This document shows positions 1,697 through 20,752 of a stretch of DNA of 64,000 nt, piece after piece (position 1 is the first letter of the stretch; each line of letters starts with the position of its first letter). Under the pieces are notes generated by a model. That model saw only the letters and a list, made by a program, of their open reading frames with translations, did not search any database and was not told the DNA's origin. Both the position numbers and the translations under genes were made by a program. The DNA comes from Herpetosiphonaceae bacterium (GTDB lineage: Bacteria > Chloroflexota > Chloroflexia > Chloroflexales > Kallotenuaceae): NCBI GenBank assembly GCA_036374795.1, contig DASUTC010000067.1, positions 1 to 64,000 of the forward strand, read 5' to 3'.

Positions 1697-2688
1697 CGCT
1701 GGTACCTGTCCTCGTGCAGCCACCGGGCTACCTCTTTCGCATAGTAGGTTAGAATCAGATCCGCTCCGGCGCGCTTGATCGACAGCAGGCTTTCGAGCGC
1801 GACCTGCCGCTCGTCGATCCAGCCGTTCTGCGCCGCCGCCTTGATCATCGCGTACTCGCCCGACACATGGTAGGCGGCAGTTGGTCGGTCGAAGCGCTGG
1901 CGGATGCTGGCGAGCACGTCCAGGTAGGGCAGCGCCGGCTTGACCATCAGCAGATCCGCGCCCTCGGCGGCGTCGAGCGCTACCTCAAGCAGCGCCTCGC
2001 GGGCGTTGGCCGGGTCCATCTGGTACTGCTTCCGATCGCCAAAAGCGGGCGGCGAGTCGGCGGCCTCGCGGAACGGGCCGTAAAAGCTCGACGCGAACTT
2101 CGCCGCGTAGGCCATGATCGCCACGTCGCGCGCGCCCACCCGATCCAGCTCCTCGCGGATCGCCGCGACCGCGCCATCCATCATCCCGCTCGGCGCGACG
2201 ATGTCCGCGCCCGCCTCGGCATGGGAGGCCACCACCCGCTGCAACACCTCGACCGTCGTGTCGTTGACGACGTAGCCGTGCTCGTCGAGCAGGCCGCAGT
2301 GACCGTGATCGGTGTACTCGCACATGCACACATCGGTGATCACCACCAGCTCGGGCACGGCGTCTTTGAGCGCGCGGATCGCCTGCTGCACGATGCCGTC
2401 GTCGGCGTAGTTCTCGCTCCCAGCGGCATCTTTGGTCGCTGGCAGCCCGAACATGATCACCGCTGGAATGCCGAGCGTGGCGATCTCCTCGGCCTGACGC
2501 GGCAGCAGGTCTACCGACCACTGGTGCTGGCCCGGCATCGAGCTGATCGGGCGCTGCTGCTTCTGCCCGTGGACCACAAAGAGCGGATAGATCAGATCAT
2601 CCGGTGTCAGCGCCGTCTCGCGCACCATCCGGCGCAGTGTCGGCGTGCGGCGCAGGCGGCGCGGACGCAGCGTTGGAAAACTAGACAT
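1693..2688 (-). CDS. hemB: Porphobilinogen synthase (delta-aminolevulinate dehydratase)
   Basis: A 331-aa cytosolic enzyme that condenses two 5-aminolevulinate molecules to porphobilinogen. The zinc-type cysteine cluster [14 protein letters not shown] and the two Schiff-base lysines ([15 protein letters not shown] and [10 protein letters not shown]) are present, and the length is normal. ATG 2688 is preceded by GGAGG and overlaps the end of cobA-hemD by eight bases; its own stop overlaps the DUF1802 start. These overlaps place it inside a tightly packed heme operon (hemA-hemC-cobA/hemD-hemB). Confidence 0.97.
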
Positions 2689-4327
2689 AGCTTCGTTCCT
2701 CCGAAGGCGCGGCACCCAGCGTCGCGATCAGCGCGCTCATCAGCCCATCGATCGTATATTTCTCGGCCTCGATCGTCACCCTGAGGCCAAAGTCGCGGGC
2801 GGTCTGCGCCGTGATCGGGCCGATCGCCGCGATCGTCACCGGCTCCAGCAGCGCGCGCGCCTCGTCGTTCGCCACGCCCGACTGTTCCAGCCGCGCAAAA
2901 AAGTTCGTGACCGTCGACGAGGATGTAAACGTGACCGCATCGATCGCCCGGTCACGCAGCATCCCCACGACGCTATCGTTTCGAGCTTCGTGTTTCGGGT
3001 TTCGAGTTTCGAGGCCCTCACCATGCCCGGAGGGCGCCCGGCATCTTAGTTCTTGGTTCTCTTGTTCTTCCCCCGTTCCCAGCACCGTCCGATACGCGAC
3101 CACGTTATCGACGTGCGCGCCTTTGGCTTGCAGACCTTCGGCCAGCGTCTCGCGGGCAATATCGGCGCGCGGCAGCAGAATGCGCTGGCCCGCGACATCG
3201 CCGATCTGCTCGATCACCGCCTCGGCCACGAACTCGGTCGGCACGAACGTTGCGCGCAGCCCGGCCTCTTCGAGCGCCTGCGCCGTCGCGGGGCCGATCG
3301 CGCCGATGCGATGGTGATGCAGCAGCGACGGCTGCATGTCGAACGTTCGCATGCGATCGAGCATGAAGCGCACGCCGTTGACGCTGGTAAAGATGATCCA
3401 GTTGTACTCGTCGAGCTTGGCGAGCGCCTGATCGAGCGGCGTCCAGTCGGCGGGCGGCGCGAACGCGATCACCGGATACTCGATCGGCTGCGCGCCTGCC
3501 TCGCGGAGCCGGGCGCTGAGCGCGCTGGCCTGCTCGCGGGCGCGCGTCACGATGATGCGCCTGCCGCGCAGCGGACGATTATCGAACCAGCGCAGGCGCT
3601 CGCGCAGCCGCACCACATCGCCGACTACCGTAATCGCGGGCGGCTTGAGCGCGGCGGCGGCTACAGCGGCGGCGATCGTCTGGAGCGTGCCGGTGACAAC
3701 CTGCTGCTCCGGCTTGGTGCCCCAGCGGATCACCGCTACGGGCGTGTCCGGCCTGCGCCCGTTGACGATCAGCTTCTCGGCGATCTCCGGCAGATTGCCG
3801 ACGCCCATGTAGAACACCAGCGTATCGATCGCCGTCGCCAGCGTGTGCCAGTTGAGCGCCGTTTCGGGCTTGGCCGGGTCTTCGTGGCCGGTGATGAACG
3901 CGACCGACGAGGCCAGCTCGCGATGCGTCACCGGAATTCCGGCGTAGGCCGGCGCGGCCACGCCCGCCGTGATGCCGGGCACAACCTCCCACGGAATCCC
4001 GGCCTGTTGCAGCACATCGGCCTCCTCGCCGCCGCGACCGAAGATGTAGGGATCGCCGCCCTTGAGCCGCACCACGCGCCTGCCCGCGTGCCCGTGCTCG
4101 ACCAGCAGCGCGTTGATCTCGTCCTGCGAGAGCGTGTGCCGTCCCGCCTGCTTGCCGACGTAGATCCGCTCCACGTCGGGGCGGCAATGTTCGAGCAGCG
4201 CGGCATTCGCCAGATAATCGTAGATCACCACATCGGCCTCTTGCAGCCGCCGCAAGCCTTTGACCGTGATCAGGTCGGGATCGCCCGGACCGGCTCCGAC
4301 CAGCGAAACGAAACCTTGTCTCGTCAT
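2681..4327 (-). CDS. cobA-hemD: Fused uroporphyrinogen-III C-methyltransferase / uroporphyrinogen-III synthase
   Basis: A 548-aa fusion. Residues 1 to about 245 are a SUMT/CobA methyltransferase ([14 protein letters not shown] at the N-terminus, then [18 protein letters not shown] and [16 protein letters not shown]) that makes precorrin-2 for siroheme. Residues from about 255 are the HemD cyclase, with [24 protein letters not shown], and [12 protein letters not shown] near the end. Between about residues 415 and 446 the HemD domain carries an in-frame, charged, low-complexity insertion encoded by an intercistronic-type repeat. Such fusions are known in bacteria; the insertion is the odd part. 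ATG 4327 lies four bases after the hemC stop, with no strong Shine-Dalgarno site, so coupling is likely. Confidence 0.93.
2990..3082 (-). repeat. Modular repeat, copy b, inside the HemD reading frame
   Basis: Read along hemD it has the full composite order: AGAACAAGAGAACCAAGAACT, then a GC-rich core (CCGGGCGCCCTCCGGGCAT), then four GAAAC-type units (TCGAAACTCGAAACCCG...). It keeps the reading frame and adds about 30 residues. It matches copy j (40050-40140) in module order and in wording. Confidence 0.8.
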
Positions 4328-4330
4328 GGA

Positions 4331-11405: not shown

Positions 11406-13040
11406 ATGATGAAACCAATCCGCTTACTGTTGCTACTGGCGCTGCTGCTGACCGCGTGCGGCCCGACAACCGCGTCTCCCCCCGGCGAGGCCAGCGAGGC
11501 CCCCGCCAACGCCGTCAAGATCACGCTCGCGTACTCTCCGGAAAAAGAGGCCTGGCTGAATGATCGGCTGGCTGAGTTCAACCGCAGCGGCGCGAAGGTC
11601 AACAATCGTCCGATTTTCGCCGAGGGCGTCAACAAATCGTCGGGGGCGGCGCGCACCGAGATCAAGCAGGGCTCGCTCCAGCCGACGATCTGGTCGCCGT
11701 CGTCGAGCGTGTGGCTGGAGGTGCTCAAGCAGGAGAGCGGCAATCCCAACGTAGCCGTGTCGAGCCGCCCGATGCTGCTGACGCCGGTGGTGATCTCGAT
11801 GTGGAAGCCGATGGCCGAGGCGCTCGGCTGGCCCAACAAGCAGATTGGCTGGAATGATCTGCTGGCGCTGGTCAACGAGCCGGAGGGCTGGGGCAAGTAC
11901 GGGCATCCTGAGTGGGGCCGCTTCTCGTGGGGCCATACTGATCCTGAGATTAGCACCACCGCGCTGTCGACGGTGCTGGCCGAGTTTTACGCCGCGACCA
12001 ATAAGTCGCGCGGCCTGACCGAGGCCGACGTACAGGCGGAGTCCAGCCAGAAGTTTCTGCGCGATCTCGGCCTGGCGATCAAGCACTATGGCTATAATAC
12101 GCTGGTCTTCTCCGAAAACATGAAGAAGTACGGCACGTCGTATATCTCGGCGTTTCCAATGGAGGAGATCACGCTGATCGAGTTCAACAAGAGCGCGCCG
12201 CCAACGCCGCTGGTGGCGATCTATCCGCGTGAGGGCACGTTCTGGCACGATAATCCCTTCATCGTGATGGCCTCCGCCTCGCAGGAGGAGCAGCAGGCCG
12301 CCCAGCAGCTCTTCGATTTTCTGAACTCGCCCGAAAGCCAGACCGCCGCGATGCAGTTCGGCTTCCGCCCGGCCAATACGGCGGTCGCGATCGGCGATCC
12401 GATCTCGCCGCAGTTCGGTGCTGATCCGAACCAGCCGCAGACGCTCCTTGAGGTGCCGCCGGGCAATGTGCTGGTGGCGGCCAAGAACGCCTGGGCCGCG
12501 AACCGCAAGCGCGCGAATATCGTGCTGGTCGTCGATACCTCAGGCTCGATGCGCGGCGATAAGATCGAAGAGGCCAAAGCGGGGCTTGAGCTATTCCTCA
12601 GCCGCCTGCTGCCAGAAGATCGCGTCGCGATGGTGACGTTCTCGGATACCGCTGAGGTAGTCGTGCCGCTCGGCGTGCTGAGCGAGAACCGCATCCAGCT
12701 TCAAAGCGCGGTGCAGAATATCGAGGTCGAGGGCAAGACCGCGATGTACGATGCGCTGCGCGAGGCGCGCAAGGTGCTGGAAGCCGACATCGACGATCGC
12801 AACCGGATCAACGCGATCGTGCTGCTGAGCGACGGCGAAGATACCGCGCAGACAAGCACCTTCGAGGATGTCAGGGCCGACTACAACGAAACCGACATCT
12901 CGATCTTCCCGATCGCCTACGGCGAGGACGCTGCCAAGGATGCGCTTCAGCAGATCGCCGATTTCACCCGCACGATCGTGATCTCCGGCAGCACGGGCGA
13001 CATCAACAAGGTCTTCGAGAATCTGAGCCGGTATTTCTGA
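11406..13040 (+). CDS. Substrate-binding and VWA domain lipoprotein
   Basis: A 544-aa lipoprotein with a signal peptide ending in LLTAC. Residues about 35-350 are a solute-binding domain paralogous to the previous gene (WSPSSSVWLEVLKQES, PEGWGKYGHPEWGRFSWGH). Residues from about 365 are a von Willebrand factor A domain with an intact MIDAS: DTSGSM beginning at Asp377, then the Thr in GKTAMYDAL and the Asp in LLSDGEDT. A metal-dependent protein-protein interaction on the cell surface is the expected role. AAGGAG lies five bases before ATG 11406 and eight before the second ATG. The three genes from 10227 to 13842 look like one operon. Confidence 0.88.
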   Translation: MMKPIRLLLLLALLLTACGPTTASPPGEASEAPANAVKITLAYSPEKEAWLNDRLAEFNRSGAKVNNRPIFAEGVNKSSGAARTEIKQGSLQPTIWSPSSSVWLEVLKQESGNPNVAVSSRPMLLTPVVISMWKPMAEALGWPNKQIGWNDLLALVNEPEGWGKYGHPEWGRFSWGHTDPEISTTALSTVLAEFYAATNKSRGLTEADVQAESSQKFLRDLGLAIKHYGYNTLVFSENMKKYGTSYISAFPMEEITLIEFNKSAPPTPLVAIYPREGTFWHDNPFIVMASASQEEQQAAQQLFDFLNSPESQTAAMQFGFRPANTAVAIGDPISPQFGADPNQPQTLLEVPPGNVLVAAKNAWAANRKRANIVLVVDTSGSMRGDKIEEAKAGLELFLSRLLPEDRVAMVTFSDTAEVVVPLGVLSENRIQLQSAVQNIEVEGKTAMYDALREARKVLEADIDDRNRINAIVLLSDGEDTAQTSTFEDVRADYNETDISIFPIAYGEDAAKDALQQIADFTRTIVISGSTGDINKVFENLSRYF

Positions 13041-13101
13041 GCTTTATCGTGTGCTGTGGCGGCGCGCTCAGAAGCGCCGCTGCGGCCATCGTGGAAGTGA
13101 T

Positions 13102-13842
13102 ATGCGCGTTTCAATTGTCACCGCCGCAACCCGTCCGCTGAATCTGCTGATCGCGCTGGTCGCGATCGGCGCTGGCCTGACGATCGCGCTCTGGCTGCTG
13201 CCAGTGGGCTTGCTCGCCTACGCGGCGCTGGTCGCGCTGACGGTGCTCGATCCCAAGGCCGCGCAAAAGGCCCAGGCTCGTCCGCGCGTGCTGCGTCCGC
13301 CGCGCGGCACGCCGTTCCAGGCGCAGCTCGACGCTATCGCGCGGGTCCAGGCCCAGATCGCCCAGTCGGTCGCATCGACCGAGGGGGCGCTGCGCGCGAC
13401 GCTGGAGCGGGTGACGGGCCAGGTGGATAGTATCGTCGAGGAAGCGTACGCGCTGGCGGTCAAAGGCCAGACCGTCGTCTCGTACCTGCAACAGACCAAT
13501 ACGTCCGAGCTGAATGTGCAGCTGGTGCGGCTCGACAGCCAGATCAAGACCACGCACGATCCGATGCTGCGCCAGCAGTATCAGGAAACGCGCGACGCGG
13601 TTGCCGAGCGGCTCAACCATGCGCAGGCGCTCGGCACCTATCATCAGCGCATCGTCGCGCAGCTCGAAAATATCTGCGCCAATCTCGATAATGTGCTGGC
13701 TGAGACGGTGCGCCTGCGCGCCGCGCCCGCCGTGGATGCCACGATTAGCACCGACAGCGTTTCCTCGCGGCTGGCCGATGTGCGCGCCGATATGGATGCG
13801 CTGGGCCATATGCTCGATAGCGCGCTGACTGGCGTGACCTGA
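13102..13842 (+). CDS. Membrane-anchored coiled-coil protein
   Basis: A 246-aa protein of unknown function. Residues about 12-50 form two close membrane helices (LNLLIALVAIGAGLTIALWL and LPVGLLAYAALVALTVL), followed by a long alpha-helical, Gln/Ala-rich cytoplasmic region that looks like a coiled coil. It vaguely recalls XpaC-type proteins found beside TelA/VWA genes, but I cannot confirm that. ATG 13102 was preferred over an upstream in-frame ATG because GGAAGTG precedes it and the upstream extension is very basic. It lies 61 bases after the VWA lipoprotein and probably belongs to the same unit. Confidence 0.65.
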   Translation: MRVSIVTAATRPLNLLIALVAIGAGLTIALWLLPVGLLAYAALVALTVLDPKAAQKAQARPRVLRPPRGTPFQAQLDAIARVQAQIAQSVASTEGALRATLERVTGQVDSIVEEAYALAVKGQTVVSYLQQTNTSELNVQLVRLDSQIKTTHDPMLRQQYQETRDAVAERLNHAQALGTYHQRIVAQLENICANLDNVLAETVRLRAAPAVDATISTDSVSSRLADVRADMDALGHMLDSALTGVT

Positions 13843-13853
13843 GATGAACACGA

Positions 13854-13880
13854 CGGCTGCTGGTATCGAGCCAGCAGCCG
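13854..13880. terminator. Bidirectional terminator-like hairpin
   Basis: A ten-base-pair perfect stem, CGGCTGCTGG / CCAGCAGCCG, with a seven-base loop between two convergent genes. There is no U-run on either side, so it may only slow polymerase or protect 3' ends. Confidence 0.55.
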
Positions 13881-13911
13881 TTGCGTCAAGCGCTTCTCCA
13901 TAGGAGCGCCG

Positions 13912-14712
13912 CTACACGCCGCAGCCGCCGCTCAGCACGCCTGTCACCTTACTCCCCTGCACGCTGTATAGCTCAGCGCCGCTGCCTTCGTAGTATCCCC
14001 AGTTGACCATAATCTCCATCGTGCCATCGCCGTTCGCGTCCACGATCGCGGGGACGCTAAACGTGTTGGGCGCGATGAAATCCTCGGCTTTGGGATAATA
14101 GTTCTCGTCGATCGGAATCGTCTGGACCTTGCCATTGATGATTTTACGGAGCACGACGAGCGAGTAGTCGCCTGCGCTAGCTGAAGGCAATTGGGAACTA
14201 AACCGTGTGGCGCTGATCACAACCTCATCCACGCCGTCGCCCTCAAGGTCGATCCGCACGATCTTAGTGATGCGAACATCAGGATTGGCGATGCCGTGCG
14301 CCCTGAGAATGTCGGCGACAGCCTGGCGATAGACCGCAGTATTGGGGCTGTGCAGACGCGGCTTGCGTGGCAAAGGATTGTGGGTTCCTCCAACCGCGAC
14401 GAACTCAGCCGCCGAAGGGTAAGGCTTGAACTCGACCTGCCACATATCGGGGCAGATGACCTCCACTGCTTTCGCCTTGCCTGTGCTGGTGCCGATCTGC
14501 CCGGCAGTGGTGTAGATCCGGTAGCGCTGATTGCCGCGCAACTGCCGGGCCGTGGTCGCGGCGTCGATCCACTTTCCGTTGACTGATCCGCCCAACAAAA
14601 AGCCGCCGCCAACGATCGGTGTGATACGCGGCGCGGCGGCGATCGGTTGGTGTAGGGTGGTCAGCAGCAGCGCCGCGAAAATCAACCCCGCCAGTCTTGT
14701 CAGCATCGCCAT
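13912..14712 (-). CDS. Secreted protein with VCBS/FG-GAP-like motifs
   Basis: A 266-aa exported protein. Residues 1-27 are a signal peptide ending at AAA. Two short Asp-rich segments, IDLEGDGVDEVVISA (near residue 165) and VDANGDGTMEIMVNWG (near residue 230), resemble calcium-binding FG-GAP/VCBS blades, too few for a full propeller. The protein ends GGCGV. ATG 14712 is preceded by AAGGAG at eight bases; a TATACT -10 lies about 30 bases further upstream with a weak -35. It is transcribed alone. The function is unknown. Confidence 0.75.
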   Translation of the reverse strand: MAMLTRLAGLIFAALLLTTLHQPIAAAPRITPIVGGGFLLGGSVNGKWIDAATTARQLRGNQRYRIYTTAGQIGTSTGKAKAVEVICPDMWQVEFKPYPSAAEFVAVGGTHNPLPRKPRLHSPNTAVYRQAVADILRAHGIANPDVRITKIVRIDLEGDGVDEVVISATRFSSQLPSASAGDYSLVVLRKIINGKVQTIPIDENYYPKAEDFIAPNTFSVPAIVDANGDGTMEIMVNWGYYEGSGAELYSVQGSKVTGVLSGGCGV

Positions 14713-14814
14713 AGATCGTTCTCCTTAAGAATTGCTGAGATGAGTATAGGATTGTGGAGCGGTCACTGGAATGACCAGGGTGTGAAAAATATGTGATGAC
14801 GTTCGCGCGCCGCT

Positions 14815-15291
14815 CTATGACTCGTGTTTGTGGTCTGGGTGGGGAACAGACCGGACTAGCAGCACATACCAGCCGTAGCCGAGCAGCGCGCCGACGACGT
14901 TCAGGATAATATCGTCCACATCGGCGACGCGGCGGGCGAGAAACCACTGCGCTACCTCGATCGACGTACTGGTGAGCAGGCCGCACAAGACGATCCCGCT
15001 CGCGCTGGCGCGTCTGCTGACGGCTGGCACGAGCAAGCCGAGCGGCGCGAACGCGGCGATGTTGCCAAGCACGTTGACGTTGAGCAGCCAGCCGCCGCGC
15101 CGGATGCCAGCCAGGATACTTTTGAATGGGATCAGATTGACGAGCTGGGCGGGCTCGCGCGGGTGCGGGGCCATTGTCAGGCCGAGGAGCACGAGCAGGT
15201 AGAGCAGCAAGAGCACCGCCGCGACGAGCGAACGGCGCGCCGCCCGATGAGCAACGCGCCGTGGTGCTGGCTCGTGAGCCTGCGCCGACAA
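14815..15291 (-). CDS. VanZ-like membrane protein
   Basis: A 158-aa integral membrane protein with about four helices. The VanZ family core is visible in NVNVLGNIAAFAPLGLLVP and VADVDDIILNVVGALLGYG. In glycopeptide-resistance operons VanZ lowers teicoplanin susceptibility, but most chromosomal homologues have no known role. No ATG precedes the first membrane helix, so TTG 15291 is taken as the start; it lies two bases after the TAG of the lipoprotein gene, which suggests coupling. It is the last gene of an operon that begins with ftsY. Confidence 0.75.
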   Translation of the reverse strand: MSAQAHEPAPRRVAHRAARRSLVAAVLLLLYLLVLLGLTMAPHPREPAQLVNLIPFKSILAGIRRGGWLLNVNVLGNIAAFAPLGLLVPAVSRRASASGIVLCGLLTSTSIEVAQWFLARRVADVDDIILNVVGALLGYGWYVLLVRSVPHPDHKHES

Positions 15292-15293
15292 GC

Positions 15294-15746
15294 CTAGCCG
15301 CCTGTCGGCTGGTAGAGGATCTGGAACTCGCCGCGCTGCGCGCCCGTAGCTCGCACGCGGTAGCGGAACTCGCCCGCCGCGTTGGTCTGCACCTGGCCGG
15401 GCCGCACCTGCTCCTGAGCCGTCCCCTCGACCGACAGCACCACGCTGCCGCGATCGTCGAGCACCTCGATCCGCATCTGGCCGCGCTCGTTGCGCGCAAA
15501 GACCGTCAGATCGAGCGTCTGGCCCGGAAAGTTGGTCTGTACGATGCGCGTATCGTTGCCCTCGGCGCTCACAAAGCTGACGTACACGTTGCCGCCCTCG
15601 CCCGTGCTATCGGCGGACTGGTTCGCGCCTGAGATCAGCAGGCAGCCGGTGAGCGAGAGAACAGAGAACAAAGCACAGAGAACAAAGCATAAGCGACGAA
15701 CTGCTCTCTGTGCTTTGTTCCTTGTTTGTGGTACGTGACTACGCAT
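15294..15746 (-). CDS. Lipoprotein with a signal peptide encoded by a repeat
   Basis: A 150-aa predicted lipoprotein. Residues 1-18 are basic, 19-31 hydrophobic, and SLTGC (31-35) is an acceptable lipobox. The mature part is a small beta-rich domain with FPGQTLDLTVFARNERGQMRIEVLDD-like wording, which I do not assign to a family. Residues 6-31 are encoded by an intercistronic repeat (15655-15729), so the export signal is literally repeat sequence. ATG 15746 overlaps the stop of the zinc-ribbon gene by eight bases, which supports that start. If translation began later the protein would lose its signal peptide. Confidence 0.7.
   Translation of the reverse strand: MRSHVPQTRNKAQRAVRRLCFVLCALFSVLSLTGCLLISGANQSADSTGEGGNVYVSFVSAEGNDTRIVQTNFPGQTLDLTVFARNERGQMRIEVLDDRGSVVLSVEGTAQEQVRPGQVQTNAAGEFRYRVRATGAQRGEFQILYQPTGG
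15655..15729 (-). repeat. Modular repeat, copy d, forming a signal-peptide coding region
   Basis: Read along the genes: ACAAGGAACAAAGCACAGAG, a short spacer, then TTTGTTCTCTGTGCTTTGTTC. The second arm translates to the hydrophobic FVLCALFSVL of the lipoprotein signal peptide. Confidence 0.75.
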
Positions 15747-15924
15747 AGCTTTCGGGCTTGCCTTCGGCGTTGAGCGTTTCTTCTTCGGGCACGGCCTCCA
15801 CGCGCTCTGGATCGCGGCTGGTGATGCGCAGGTCGGTGTCGCACTTGGGACAGACCACCAACGAGCCGACCAGCATGGTGAAGCTCAGCATCAGTTTTTG
15901 CCCACAGACCGGACACGCTAGCAT
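15739..15924 (-). CDS. LysW-like small zinc-ribbon protein
   Basis: A 61-aa protein with two CxxC knuckles (CPVCGQK at residues 4-10 and CPKCDTD near 25-31) spaced as in LysW, the amino-group carrier protein of lysine/arginine synthesis, and in related zinc ribbons. It lacks the C-terminal EDWGE tail whose last Glu carries the substrate in true LysW, ending instead in PESYA. No lysX/argX gene is adjacent, so it is probably a structural or regulatory zinc ribbon. ATG 15924 follows AAGGAG at six bases and lies ten bases after the ftsY stop. Confidence 0.75.
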   Translation of the reverse strand: MLACPVCGQKLMLSFTMLVGSLVVCPKCDTDLRITSRDPERVEAVPEEETLNAEGKPESYA

Positions 15925-15933
15925 AGTTGCTCC

Positions 15934-17091
15934 TTAGTCTTCAAACAATGCATCGACAAAGGCATCGGGATCGAAGATCGCCACATCGTCGACCTTCTCG
16001 CCGGTGCCGATGTATTTGATCGGTCGCTCGATCTCCTGCACCATCGCGAAGGCAATCCCGCCTTTCGCCGTGCTGTCGAGCTTCGTCAGCGCCAGATGCG
16101 TCACATCGGCGGCCTCCATGAACGCGCGTGCCTGCTGGATACCGTTCTGCCCGGTGGTCGCGTCGATCACCAGCAGCACCTCGTGCGGCGCCCACTCGAC
16201 ACGCTTGCGCACGATGTTTTTGATCTTTTGCAACTCCTGCATCAGGTTATACTTCGATTGCAGGCGGCCCGCCGTGTCGATGATCAGGATGTCGGAGCTG
16301 CGCGCGTAGGTTGCCTGCACGGCGTCGAACGCGACCGCGCCCGGATCTGCGCCCTGGCCCTGGGTGATCACCGGCACATCGATGCGCTCGGCCCAGGTCT
16401 GCAACTGCTCGACGGCGGCGGCGCGGAAGGTATCGGCAGCGCCCAGGATCACGTTCTTGCCCATCTCGCGCTTGTAGCGGTTGGCGATCTTGGCGATCAG
16501 CGTGGTCTTGCCAGCACCGTTGACGCCGATCACCAGCACGACGTACGGCTTGGTCGAGCGCTCGGAGTACTGCGGCGTGTCCACCTTGAGCAGCTTGACC
16601 ATCTCCTGCTTGAGCAGCGCGCGGGCCTCGCTGGCGCGGCGAACGTTGTTGCGCTCGACTTTCTTTTGCACGCGCTCGATCAGATGGAGCGTCGTGTCGA
16701 TGCCCACATCACCGGCGATCATCAGATCTTCCAGCTCTTCCCACAGCTCGGGCGTGATCGGCTCGTCGGCCTTGAAGATCTCGGAGATGCGCCCGAACAT
16801 GCCCGACCGCGTCTTTTGCACGGCGGCGGTGGTCTTCTGCACCTCGCGCTGAATCTCCTGCTCGTCGCGCTCCTCGCCGCCAAAGAAGCGGCGGAGGCCA
16901 CCGCTGGCACGGCGGCGCTCCGCCTCGGCCTGCGCGATCCGCTGCGCCTCGATGTCGATCTCGTCTACCCGCCGAAAAAGCTGTGTGGTCGGCTGGGGCG
17001 CTGGCTCTACAGGCTCTTCGGCCTGCGGCTGCGGCGGCTTCTCTTCCTGCTCCGGCTTGCGGTCATCTCCTCCAAAAAATCGTCGAAACAT
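15934..17091 (-). CDS. ftsY: Signal recognition particle receptor FtsY
   Basis: A 385-aa SRP receptor GTPase that docks ribosome-SRP complexes at the membrane. After an acidic N-terminal A region comes the NG domain: [16 protein letters not shown] (N), then [19 protein letters not shown] (P-loop), [18 protein letters not shown], and [10 protein letters not shown]. The N-terminal motif [15 protein letters not shown] (residues 3-17) recurs as [13 protein letters not shown] near residues 67-79, a likely internal duplication. ATG 17091 has AAGGA upstream. Three small genes follow in the same direction with short overlaps. Confidence 0.97.
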
Positions 17092-17243
17092 ACCCGTCCT
17101 TAGATGCGCTCACCCACATCCGCTGGCACGATCGGCACCTGTGTGCCCTGAGCGGATGCGGGCGCTGTCGTTAATCATACATATGTTGCACGCGGCTGAT
17201 GGCCCGTACCTATGAATGATACCATCTACGGCCCGTCGCTGCG

Positions 17244-17618
17244 CTATCCCCAGCCGAGATCCTGCGACTGATCAGGTGCCGCGCTGCCGCCTTCGCCGCT
17301 CATCTCTTCTTCGAGCATCTGATCGACCATCTCGTCCCAATCGTCGCCCGCCTCGTCGCCCAGCTCTTTGCCCATCTTCTTGGCCCAGCGCGCGACCGAC
17401 GCCGGATCGTTTTCGTCGAGGCCGCCCAGCGTGGACGGATCGGAGAGCGACTCAAGCCGCGCCTCCTCCGATTGCACGACGGCAAAGCGCGACACGGCCT
17501 TGCGCACATCGGCATGGCCGCAGCGCGGACAGGTCAGGCCAGCGGGCGCGCTGAAGCCGCTGACGAGCTTCTGGAAGCGACCGTTGCAGTTGGCACAGAT
17601 ATATTCGTAGATCGGCAT
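17244..17618 (-). CDS. FmdB family zinc-ribbon protein
   Basis: A 124-aa protein beginning MPIYEYICANCNGRF, the diagnostic N-terminus of the FmdB/regulatory zinc-ribbon family, with the second knuckle CPRCGH near residue 32. The C-terminal half is acidic and disordered-looking (EMVDQMLEEEMSGEGG). The family is widespread; a regulatory role was proposed for FmdB itself but is not established generally. It lies 26 bases after the pyrimidine nucleoside phosphorylase gene and about 150 bases before ftsY. Confidence 0.88.
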   Translation of the reverse strand: MPIYEYICANCNGRFQKLVSGFSAPAGLTCPRCGHADVRKAVSRFAVVQSEEARLESLSDPSTLGGLDENDPASVARWAKKMGKELGDEAGDDWDEMVDQMLEEEMSGEGGSAAPDQSQDLGWG

Positions 17619-17644
17619 TGGCTCGATACTTTCTCCGGCAGGCG

Positions 17645-18949
17645 CTAGCGCACGACCTCGTACACCAGCGGCGGCGGCGCTGGCGCATCGGCGGTCAGGT
17701 GGAACGCGGCCCGCACGCGATCGTGGACCCGCCCAACGTCCTCGATCCGGCTGGCGTGGATCGTCGCCAGCGGCGCGCCCTGCGCCACGAACTCGCCGAC
17801 CTTATGCTCCAGCACAATGCCGACGCTGTGGTCGATCGGATCGTCTTTTTTCTGCCGCCCGCCGCCCAGATCGCCAACGACGAGCCCAAGCTCCAGCGCG
17901 TCGATCCGCGCGATGTAGCCGTCATGCGGCGCGTAGACCGGCTCGACGACTGTGGCCTCAGGCAGCAGACGCGGCTCGTCGATCACGCCGACATCGCCGC
18001 CCTGGTTGGCGATGAACGCCCTGAAGACGCGCCAGGCCGCGCCGCTCTCAAGCGCCTCGCGGAGCTGCGCCTCGGCCTCGGCTGCGCTGGACGCTGTTCC
18101 GGCCAGCAGCATAAGCTGCGTGCCAAGCGCCACACACAGCTCGACGAAATCGGAGGGGCCGTGCCCATGCAGCGTCGCGATTGCCTCTTTGATCTCAAGC
18201 GCGTTGCCGATCGCGTGGCCGAGCGGCTGATCCATCGAGGTGATCACCGCCGCGACCTTGCGACCGGCGTGGCGTCCGATCGCGACCATGCGCTCCGCCA
18301 GCGAGCGCGCATCGTCCACGGTCTTCATGAACGCGCCCTGGCCCGCCTTCACGTCCAGCACGATACAGTCCGCGCCCGCCGCCAGCTTCTTGCTCATCAC
18401 GCTCGCGGCGATCAGCGGGATGCTCTCGACCGTGCCGGTCACGTCGCGCAGCGCGTAGAGCTGCTTGTCGGCGGGCGCGAGATCGGCGCTCTGCCCCGCG
18501 ATCACCAGGCCAACGTCGCGCACTGCCTGCCGAAACTCGTCGATCGACAGATCGACCCGAAAGCCGGGGATCGACTCCAGCTTGTCGAGCGTGCCGCCGG
18601 TAAAGCCCAGTCCGCGCCCCGACATCTTGGCGACGCGCAGGCCAACGGCGGCGACGAGCGGCCCTAGCACCAGGCTGGTCTTATCGCCGACGCCGCCCGT
18701 CGAGTGCTTGTCGACCGTGCTCGGCGCGACATCGTGGAGATCGAGCATATCGCCAGATCGGGCCATCGCCAGCGTCAGATCGGCTGTCTCGCGGTCGTCC
18801 ATGCCGCGCAAGAGCACCGCCATCGCCCACGCCGCCATCTGGTAATCGGGAACGTCGCCGCTGGTGTAGTGCTCGATCAGCCAGGCGATCTCCTCGCCGG
18901 TGAGCGCTCCGCCGTCGCGTTTTTTGATGATCAGGTCAACAGTATGCAT
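17645..18949 (-). CDS. pdp: Pyrimidine-nucleoside phosphorylase
   Basis: A 434-aa enzyme that phosphorolyses uridine/thymidine/deoxyuridine to base plus (deoxy)ribose-1-phosphate in nucleoside salvage. The family opening [18 protein letters not shown], the signature [20 protein letters not shown], and the phosphate-binding segment [17 protein letters not shown] are present. The length fits the Pdp/DeoA class. ATG 18949 is the first Met of the conserved domain; upstream in-frame codons lie in an intercistronic repeat. It follows nnr, separated only by that repeat. Confidence 0.94.
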
Positions 18950-18954
18950 ACATG

Positions 18955-19021
18955 TAAGAGCAAAGAACAAAGAACAGAGAAGATCGCATTTGTTCTTTGT
19001 TCCGTTGTTCTTTGTTCTCTA
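18955..19021 (-). repeat. Modular repeat, copy e, between nnr and pdp
   Basis: In gene direction it begins at the nnr TAG with AGAACAAAGAACAACGGAAC, passes through a short GC spacer, and returns as CTCTGTTCTTTGTTCTTTGC just before the pdp start. The two arms can pair over most of their length. Confidence 0.8.
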
Positions 19022-20752
19022 ACTATTCCGCAACTCGCCGATGACGCGCGGCAGCCGCAGGAGCAGATCCCCTGCCACCGCGCCCGCCTCGCCGATCTCA
19101 CGGCGAACGAGCTGGCCTGCCTGGGCATGGAGGAAGACGCCAAGCCGCGCCGCGTCGAATGCCTCGACGCCCTGCGCGATCAGGCCGCCGATCACGCCCG
19201 CCAGCACGTCGCCGGTGCCTGCGGTTGCCAGCGCCGGATTGCCAGCCGGGCCGATGCTGGTCTTGCCGTCGGGCGCTGCGATCACTGTCTCCGCGCCTTT
19301 GAGCACGACGATCTGCTGCCACTCCTGGGCCGCCCGCAGCGCCGCGCCCGCGCGATCGGCGTTGACCTCGCCCGGATTCTCAAGCTTGAGCAGACGGGCC
19401 ATCTCGCCAGGATGCGGCGTGAGCACCAGCCGCCCGGCGGGCACTTTCGTCCACCACTCGTCGATCTCGCTGAGCAGATTCAAGCCATCGGCGTCCAGCA
19501 CCAGCGGCGGTAGCTCAACCTCGCCAGGCTTCTGCTCCTCGGCCTTTGTCTCGGTGCTCTCGGCGGCAGGGGTGGCGCGGCGGAATCCAACGCTGCCGCC
19601 GGTCTTGCGGGCGCGCTCCGCTACCACGGGTGCGGCGGCCTTCAAGAAGCCGACGCCGCCCGCCGTTTTCGATGCCTCGATCTTGAGCAGCCGCTCTAAA
19701 AACTTTCTGGTTTCTTCCTCGCGGCCCAGGCCCGGCCCGACCACCAGCGCTTTGTAGCCCTCAAGGTTTTGCAGCACTTCCTGAGCTGCGCTTGCGCCGA
19801 GCACGCCCCAATCCTCTTCGGGCAGCGGCAGGAAGGTCGCCTCGTGCAGCGAGGCTGCCAGCGCGCCAAAGATCGAGCGACCGCACGCCAGAGTTGCCAG
19901 CCCGACGCCAGCCCGCAGCGCGCCGCTGGTGGTCAGAAACGCCGCGCCGGGGTAGCGCCCGGCTCCGGCCACAACCATCACTTTGCCGAAGGTGCCCTTA
20001 TGTGAGTCTGCCGGACGTGCAGGAAGCAGGGCGCGTAGCGCCTGTGGATTAAGCGACTCCGCCATTCTTGTCTCCTCGTGTGTATCAGGTAGGCCAATCG
20101 GCACGCAGGTGACATCGCCCGAATAGCGACGCCCCGGCTCGCGTAGATGCCCGTGTTTACGAATCCCGGTCGCGATCGTGACATCCGCCATCAGCGCATG
20201 GCCCATCACCGCGCCGCTATCGGCGTTGATGCCGGTCGGCACGTCGATCGCCACCACCAGCGGCGAGCTGCCGGACCGCGCGGCACGCACGCCGTTGATC
20301 GTCTCGACCATCTGCGCGACGGGCGGCTCCAGCGGTCGATCGACGCCCATGCCGAGCAGCGCATCCACGACCGCCGCCGCGCGCTGCGCTGCCTGCCGCA
20401 GCGATTGCCCCCCGTGGTCGGCCTGCGCTTGCAGCTCAGGAATGCCGCGCTCACGGCAGGCACGCCACGGCTGATCGTCGGCGCGCTCCCGGCGCTTCCA
20501 GATGTACAGCGCGACTTTCGCGCCCGCGTCGTGGAGATAGCGCGCAGCAACCAGCCCGTCGCCGCCGTTGTTGCCCGGCCCGACCAGCACCAGGATGCGC
20601 GCGTCGCGTACCGCTTCGAGCCGCCGCATGACCTCCTGGGCCACGCCGCGCCCGGCTCGTTCCATCAGCTCGGCCCAGCTTACGCCGCCGGCGACCGCTG
20701 CGGCTTCGAGCTGTCGTGTTTCTTCAACCGAAGCAACGGTGATGTTCTGCAT
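19019..20752 (-). CDS. nnr: Bifunctional NAD(P)H-hydrate epimerase / ADP-dependent NAD(P)H-hydrate dehydratase
   Basis: A 577-aa repair enzyme. The N-terminal YjeF_N domain (VGPGNNGGDGLVAARYL near residue 55, VDALLGMGVDRPL) epimerises damaged NAD(P)HX. The C-terminal carbohydrate-kinase-like domain (KGTFGKVMVVAGAGRYPGAA, VLTPHPGEMARLL, GTGDVLAGVIGGLIAQG) dehydrates it with ADP. Between about residues 355 and 410 there is an extra linker containing two related segments, KTAGGVGFLKAAAP and KTGGSVGFRRATPA, then a Glu/Lys-rich stretch; homologues normally lack this. No Shine-Dalgarno site is visible before ATG 20752. The stop codon is the first triplet of repeat copy e. Confidence 0.93.
   Translation of the reverse strand: MQNITVASVEETRQLEAAAVAGGVSWAELMERAGRGVAQEVMRRLEAVRDARILVLVGPGNNGGDGLVAARYLHDAGAKVALYIWKRRERADDQPWRACRERGIPELQAQADHGGQSLRQAAQRAAAVVDALLGMGVDRPLEPPVAQMVETINGVRAARSGSSPLVVAIDVPTGINADSGAVMGHALMADVTIATGIRKHGHLREPGRRYSGDVTCVPIGLPDTHEETRMAESLNPQALRALLPARPADSHKGTFGKVMVVAGAGRYPGAAFLTTSGALRAGVGLATLACGRSIFGALAASLHEATFLPLPEEDWGVLGASAAQEVLQNLEGYKALVVGPGLGREEETRKFLERLLKIEASKTAGGVGFLKAAAPVVAERARKTGGSVGFRRATPAAESTETKAEEQKPGEVELPPLVLDADGLNLLSEIDEWWTKVPAGRLVLTPHPGEMARLLKLENPGEVNADRAGAALRAAQEWQQIVVLKGAETVIAAPDGKTSIGPAGNPALATAGTGDVLAGVIGGLIAQGVEAFDAARLGVFLHAQAGQLVRREIGEAGAVAGDLLLRLPRVIGELRNS

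Follow-up and report, generated by a model that had tools for sequence, protein, structure and literature searches.

The window (the whole stretch of DNA analysed, 64,000 nucleotides) carries a gene pair in which a LysW-like zinc-ribbon gene is followed by an ORF for a predicted lipoprotein (Table 1). The zinc-ribbon ORF matched Pfam Zn_ribbon_LysW at 1.4e-09 and scored below the NCBIfam lysW cut-off. As described in the initial annotation, the lipoprotein start overlaps the upstream stop, its ATG sitting within the last codons of the zinc-ribbon gene. The lipoprotein N-terminus reads MRSHVPQTRNKAQRAVRRLCFVLCALFSVLSLTGC; the mature part comprises 115 residues and gave only weak, sub-threshold matches to Ig-like families. 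The stretch from the start to the lipobox is occupied by a heptad-repeat hairpin, whose A-rich and T-rich arms are separated by a nine-base loop. That the T-rich arm translates to FVLCALFSVL and forms the hydrophobic core, with SLTGC directly after the repeat, was already recognised in the initial annotation and was confirmed. Only this arm had been reported, however; the second arm, which encodes RNKAQRA, was overlooked. Because the A-rich arm is also coding, the hairpin spans nearly all of the n- and h-regions.

Table 1. Positions of the lipoprotein locus and of other repeat copies in the window.
Feature	Position	Strand	Remarks
LysW-like zinc-ribbon gene, upstream	15739..15924	-	stop overlaps lipoprotein start (ATGCGTAG)
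Predicted lipoprotein ORF, 150 aa	15294..15746	-	mature domain conserved across the order
A-rich hairpin arm	15702..15729	-	encodes basic n-region (..TRNKAQRA..)
T-rich hairpin arm	15656..15692	-	encodes hydrophobic core LCFVLCALFSVLS
Lipobox SLTGC	15642..15656	-	abuts repeat end; position conserved among orthologues
Intergenic hairpin copy, usual arrangement	18956..19020	.	
In-frame repeat insertion, 30 aa, HemD part of ORF 2684-4330(-)	2972..3061	-	missing in G002, G003 and G004 orthologues

The signal peptide, laid out as MRSHVPQTRNKAQRAVRR / LCFVLCALFSVLS / LTGC, has the sequence features of a Sec/SPII substrate: a basic n-region, a hydrophobic h-region and a lipobox of the form L-[AST]-[GA]-C. 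The lipobox is common to the orthologues, and the hydropathy of the h-region (2.93) falls inside the range of the orthologues, 1.16-3.18. The arms reached 35 and 50 bits against a profile of the unit derived from the other copies. The heptad scores of the start-to-lipobox segment (123 bases up to the Cys) were reached by none of 300 shuffles. The repeat encodes the signal peptide of the lipoprotein, and the encoded peptide is predicted to be exported and lipidated.

Translation most likely starts upstream of the repeat, since the lipobox and the region preceding it are conserved and, upstream of the mature domain, the reading frame offers a single alternative start, a TTG within the repeat arm. 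This TTG, at 15671, was preferred by a codon-usage gene caller, as would be expected if the frame ahead of the repeat were untranslated and the protein began within the repeat or beyond it. Such a start would, however, yield a core without a basic n-region; the lipobox and upstream signal peptide are conserved across the order, and the same overlapping ATG is used by family relatives. A downstream start is therefore hardly credible.

The repeat consists of dispersed (TTTGTTC)n hairpins, each with an A-rich arm, a short loop and a T-rich arm. Allowing one mismatch, 22 matches to TTTGTTCTTTG were counted in the window against 0.19 expected; allowing two, TTTGTTCTTTGTTC gave 1025 matches genome-wide against 94 for the reversed control. 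Counted per genome, repeat matches numbered 546 in the genome of the window (G000), 349 in G048, 310 in G001 and 198 in G068, and 0 to 3 in most others. The spread across the order is patchy: two distantly related members, G048 and G068, have the heptad in abundance, and most other genomes almost lack it. Where arms of opposite sense were adjacent, the A-rich arm preceded the T-rich one 42 times and never followed it. The median hairpin is 74.5 bp, unit number is variable and all frames are usable. The arms are inverted and, compared with MITEs, lack an obvious fixed end sequence. Genome statistics were derived from pattern counts and from a sample of stretches that were selected in part because they contain the repeat; within 1.05 Mb so sampled, ~85% of it coding according to a simple gene caller, 115 of 135 elements were intergenic. 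Most copies end before reaching the native start codon of the following gene. In G000, TTTGTTC copies have another heptad-like family beside them, AAGTTTC, which reads FQVSSFK or LETRNLK.

Tandem TTTGTTC is free of stops in every frame on both strands. Because seven and three share no factor, every frame gives the same amino-acid cycle, the hydrophobic FVLCSLF on one strand and the basic NKEQRTK on the complement. This double property is found in 38 of 2340 possible heptads (1.6%). Real hairpins, read on both strands and in all frames, were stop-free in 73% of readings. A basic-then-hydrophobic reading was defined as a hydrophobic ten-residue stretch following a net charge of at least +2, and was given by 45% of the open hairpin frames, as compared with 1-2% for shuffled, intergenic and random controls and 0% with the arms swapped. 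Either strand reads in this order because the arms are always A-rich then T-rich. The order is the layout of a signal peptide's n- and h-regions, or of a cytoplasmic loop followed by a membrane helix.

Relatives of the mature domain were present in 61 of 100 related genomes searched, and nearly all have basic and hydrophobic stretches together with a lipobox. The genomes compared were multi-contig assemblies. A start overlapping the zinc-ribbon stop was also found in G002, G003, G004 and G005. The idea that all orthologues carry the repeat was rejected, as it is confined to G000, G001 and G068. The initial annotation had proposed comparing the N-terminus with orthologues lacking the repeat. 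Three such orthologues, in G002 (same genus) and in G004 and G005 (same family), share the overlapping start and have a lipoprotein signal peptide. The Cys is residue 35 in G000, 40 in G001, 35 in G002, 32 in G003 and G005, and 27 in G004. The signal peptide of the repeat-free orthologues and the little-changed distance from start to Cys indicate that the signal peptide predates the repeat, and that an existing, ancestral one was rebuilt or replaced at nearly unchanged length. The earlier suggestion that the repeat created or replaced an export signal thus stands for replacement, and creation is not supported.

In G001, of the same genus as G000, a diverged hairpin lies at the same place and in frame (MLSKLKTKNLEPRTKRATGTKRRFLLVLSSLFAVLSLTGC); over the last 14 codons before LTGC the two align ungapped, with mostly hydrophobic or small replacements. 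In-frame retention at this locus was seen in one pair (G000/G001) plus G068. G003 has at most a trace of the repeat. Its core, LCSLFGVL before LTGC, resembles that of G000 and matches the heptad only weakly (16.8 bits; shuffle p 0.017 for the sense strand, 0.05 for both arms together); it may be what is left of a decayed repeat, or it may be native and repeat-like. Since hydrophobic residues have T-rich codons, a native core could mimic the heptad, and the similar core of G003, with its weak heptad signal, suggests that the native core may already have done so. The T-rich arm of G000 would then merely look like repeat, and the repeat proper would be the upstream A-rich arm and loop alone. This is improbable, because among 60 orthologous signal peptides strong T-arms were confined to G000 and G001 (41-50 bits) and G068 (22-30 bits), the very three that have A-arms (31-37 bits), and because the G000 arms pair into a long stem.

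In G068, which belongs to another family, a hairpin lies in the signal peptide of the same gene, before LSGC. Its A-arm (36.8 bits) encodes PGTKRNEQSAQKR and its weaker T-arm encodes FVCSWSVLGMLFLVLL. The genus mate of G068, G055, has an ordinary signal peptide from which the repeat is absent, and the G068 hairpin is apparently independent of that in G000. The orthologues of G048, G065 and G075 appear to have other repeats, limited to the n-region; apparent repeats of other kinds were noted in the n-region of this lipoprotein, upstream of the lipobox, in other genera (L008, L013, L073, L076 and L082). As other orthologues appear to carry different repeats, the gene junction seems to accept repeats readily.

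Among 191 elements in 1.35 Mb, 10 further copies were in frame inside confident coding regions, a small count that comes from a simple in-house gene caller. Copies with the T-arm read in sense fell in membrane proteins, namely three PMT_2 glycosyltransferase paralogues and one Wzy_C protein. Each of the three PMT_2 copies lies where a loop and a membrane helix precede PW[ST]xxN, and the G001 PMT_2 relatives L215, L228 and L229 have repeats at the same place. These loop/helix repeats were thus observed in paralogues from two genomes of the genus (L125:15854-19999, L174:14274-16430, L215, L228 and L229). At this site a native helix is present in orthologues and homologues that lack the repeat, so the segment was rebuilt rather than created. 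Copies read through the A-arm alone fell in hydrophilic stretches: in NRPS adenylation domains and in the HemD part of the window ORF, where they form loops, in a further PMT_2 protein and in an ORF that Pfam did not match. Three NRPS modules (L162, L178 and L180) share the position of their A-arm insertion, a hinge that follows YVV. The idea that many lipoproteins owe their signal peptide to the repeat was not borne out; 1.35 Mb of this genome gave only the present one with a lipobox and a clear need for the upstream start.

These observations suggest that, in an ancestral lipoprotein gene with a fixed start codon and a fixed lipobox, a heptad hairpin came to occupy the gap between the two and would now encode the signal peptide. 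It would be tolerated there because of its translation, which is stop-free and basic then hydrophobic in any frame. Genic copies would mostly have been lost, the survivors marking sites where a basic-then-hydrophobic peptide is acceptable, and we infer that selection kept copies where such a reading is harmless or useful. We regard this account of the lipoprotein locus, takeover of the start-lipobox stretch by a hairpin tolerated through its translation, as probable with good confidence. Alternatively, the hairpin may have been kept for a role in RNA, in mRNA stability or in tuning translation of the second gene, with the coding of a signal peptide as a tolerated by-product. As mRNA the lipoprotein hairpin folds at -41.8 kcal/mol (z = -5.4), a very stable stem from ~20 nt past the AUG, and copies of the repeat are mostly intergenic. 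Against this, the two arms of one element do not complement each other better than arms drawn from separate elements do (8.5 against 9.0), so that maintained arm pairing was rejected and the stem is not a demonstrated target of selection. No Rfam family matched at gathering score in 13000-20000, and in all lineages examined the peptide has properties that suit the site. The stem may act in the mRNA, but that such a role is what retained the hairpin seems unlikely.

The preferred reading, replacement of a signal peptide by a hairpin tolerated for its translation, offers a concrete route from a non-coding repeat to a protein targeting signal without a reading-frame barrier, since the length and composition of the repeat allow it to be read in any frame. 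Related genomes with and without the repeat then permit a direct test of how signal peptides originate and turn over. It also carries a warning for annotation, as ORFs extended through such repeats can mimic secreted proteins. More speculatively, the hairpin might serve as a portable supply of targeting and membrane segments, indifferent to frame and strand, that provides a basic and then a hydrophobic stretch in whatever gene it enters. In lineages with hundreds of copies it might repeatedly have remodelled signal peptides and membrane loops, affecting which proteins are exported and how. We put this forward as a tentative and rather unlikely proposal.

No report of this Chloroflexota repeat, or of any repeat serving as a signal peptide, was found in the open literature; a frame- and strand-indifferent repeat in this role therefore appears to be new, whereas in-frame palindromic repeats are already known. 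Heptameric simple sequence repeats of Xanthomonas and Nostoc occur genome-wide and are enriched in non-coding DNA (PMC4692102), and differ in being G-rich, quadruplex-forming and under-represented in genes. The TAACTGA heptads of Beggiatoaceae are likewise abundant and intergenic, often just upstream of start codons (PMC4679880). They are direct repeats, mostly confined to gene ends because every frame of their forward strand contains stops, and show neither the inverted pairs nor a peptide reading comparable to those of the TTTGTTC hairpins. PARCELs are palindromic coding repeats in proteins that often bear membrane-targeting sequences (PMC2996958), but they form a 25-residue tandem protein motif that is neither an intergenic heptad hairpin nor itself a targeting signal. 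Rickettsia palindromic elements (RPEs) are short, dispersed palindromic repeats found in frame within protein genes (review, PMC10969869), and the heptad hairpins resemble them in being palindromic and in frame in ORFs (10 of 191 elements internal, plus the lipoprotein). RPEs, which are about 100-150 bp long, are grouped into families, specify a conserved peptide and lie in ORFs in nearly half of cases; the heptad hairpins have neither this length nor one conserved peptide. Unlike RPEs, the Chloroflexota repeat is a heptad array usable in any frame and mostly intergenic, and its copy in the lipoprotein gene is a signal peptide.
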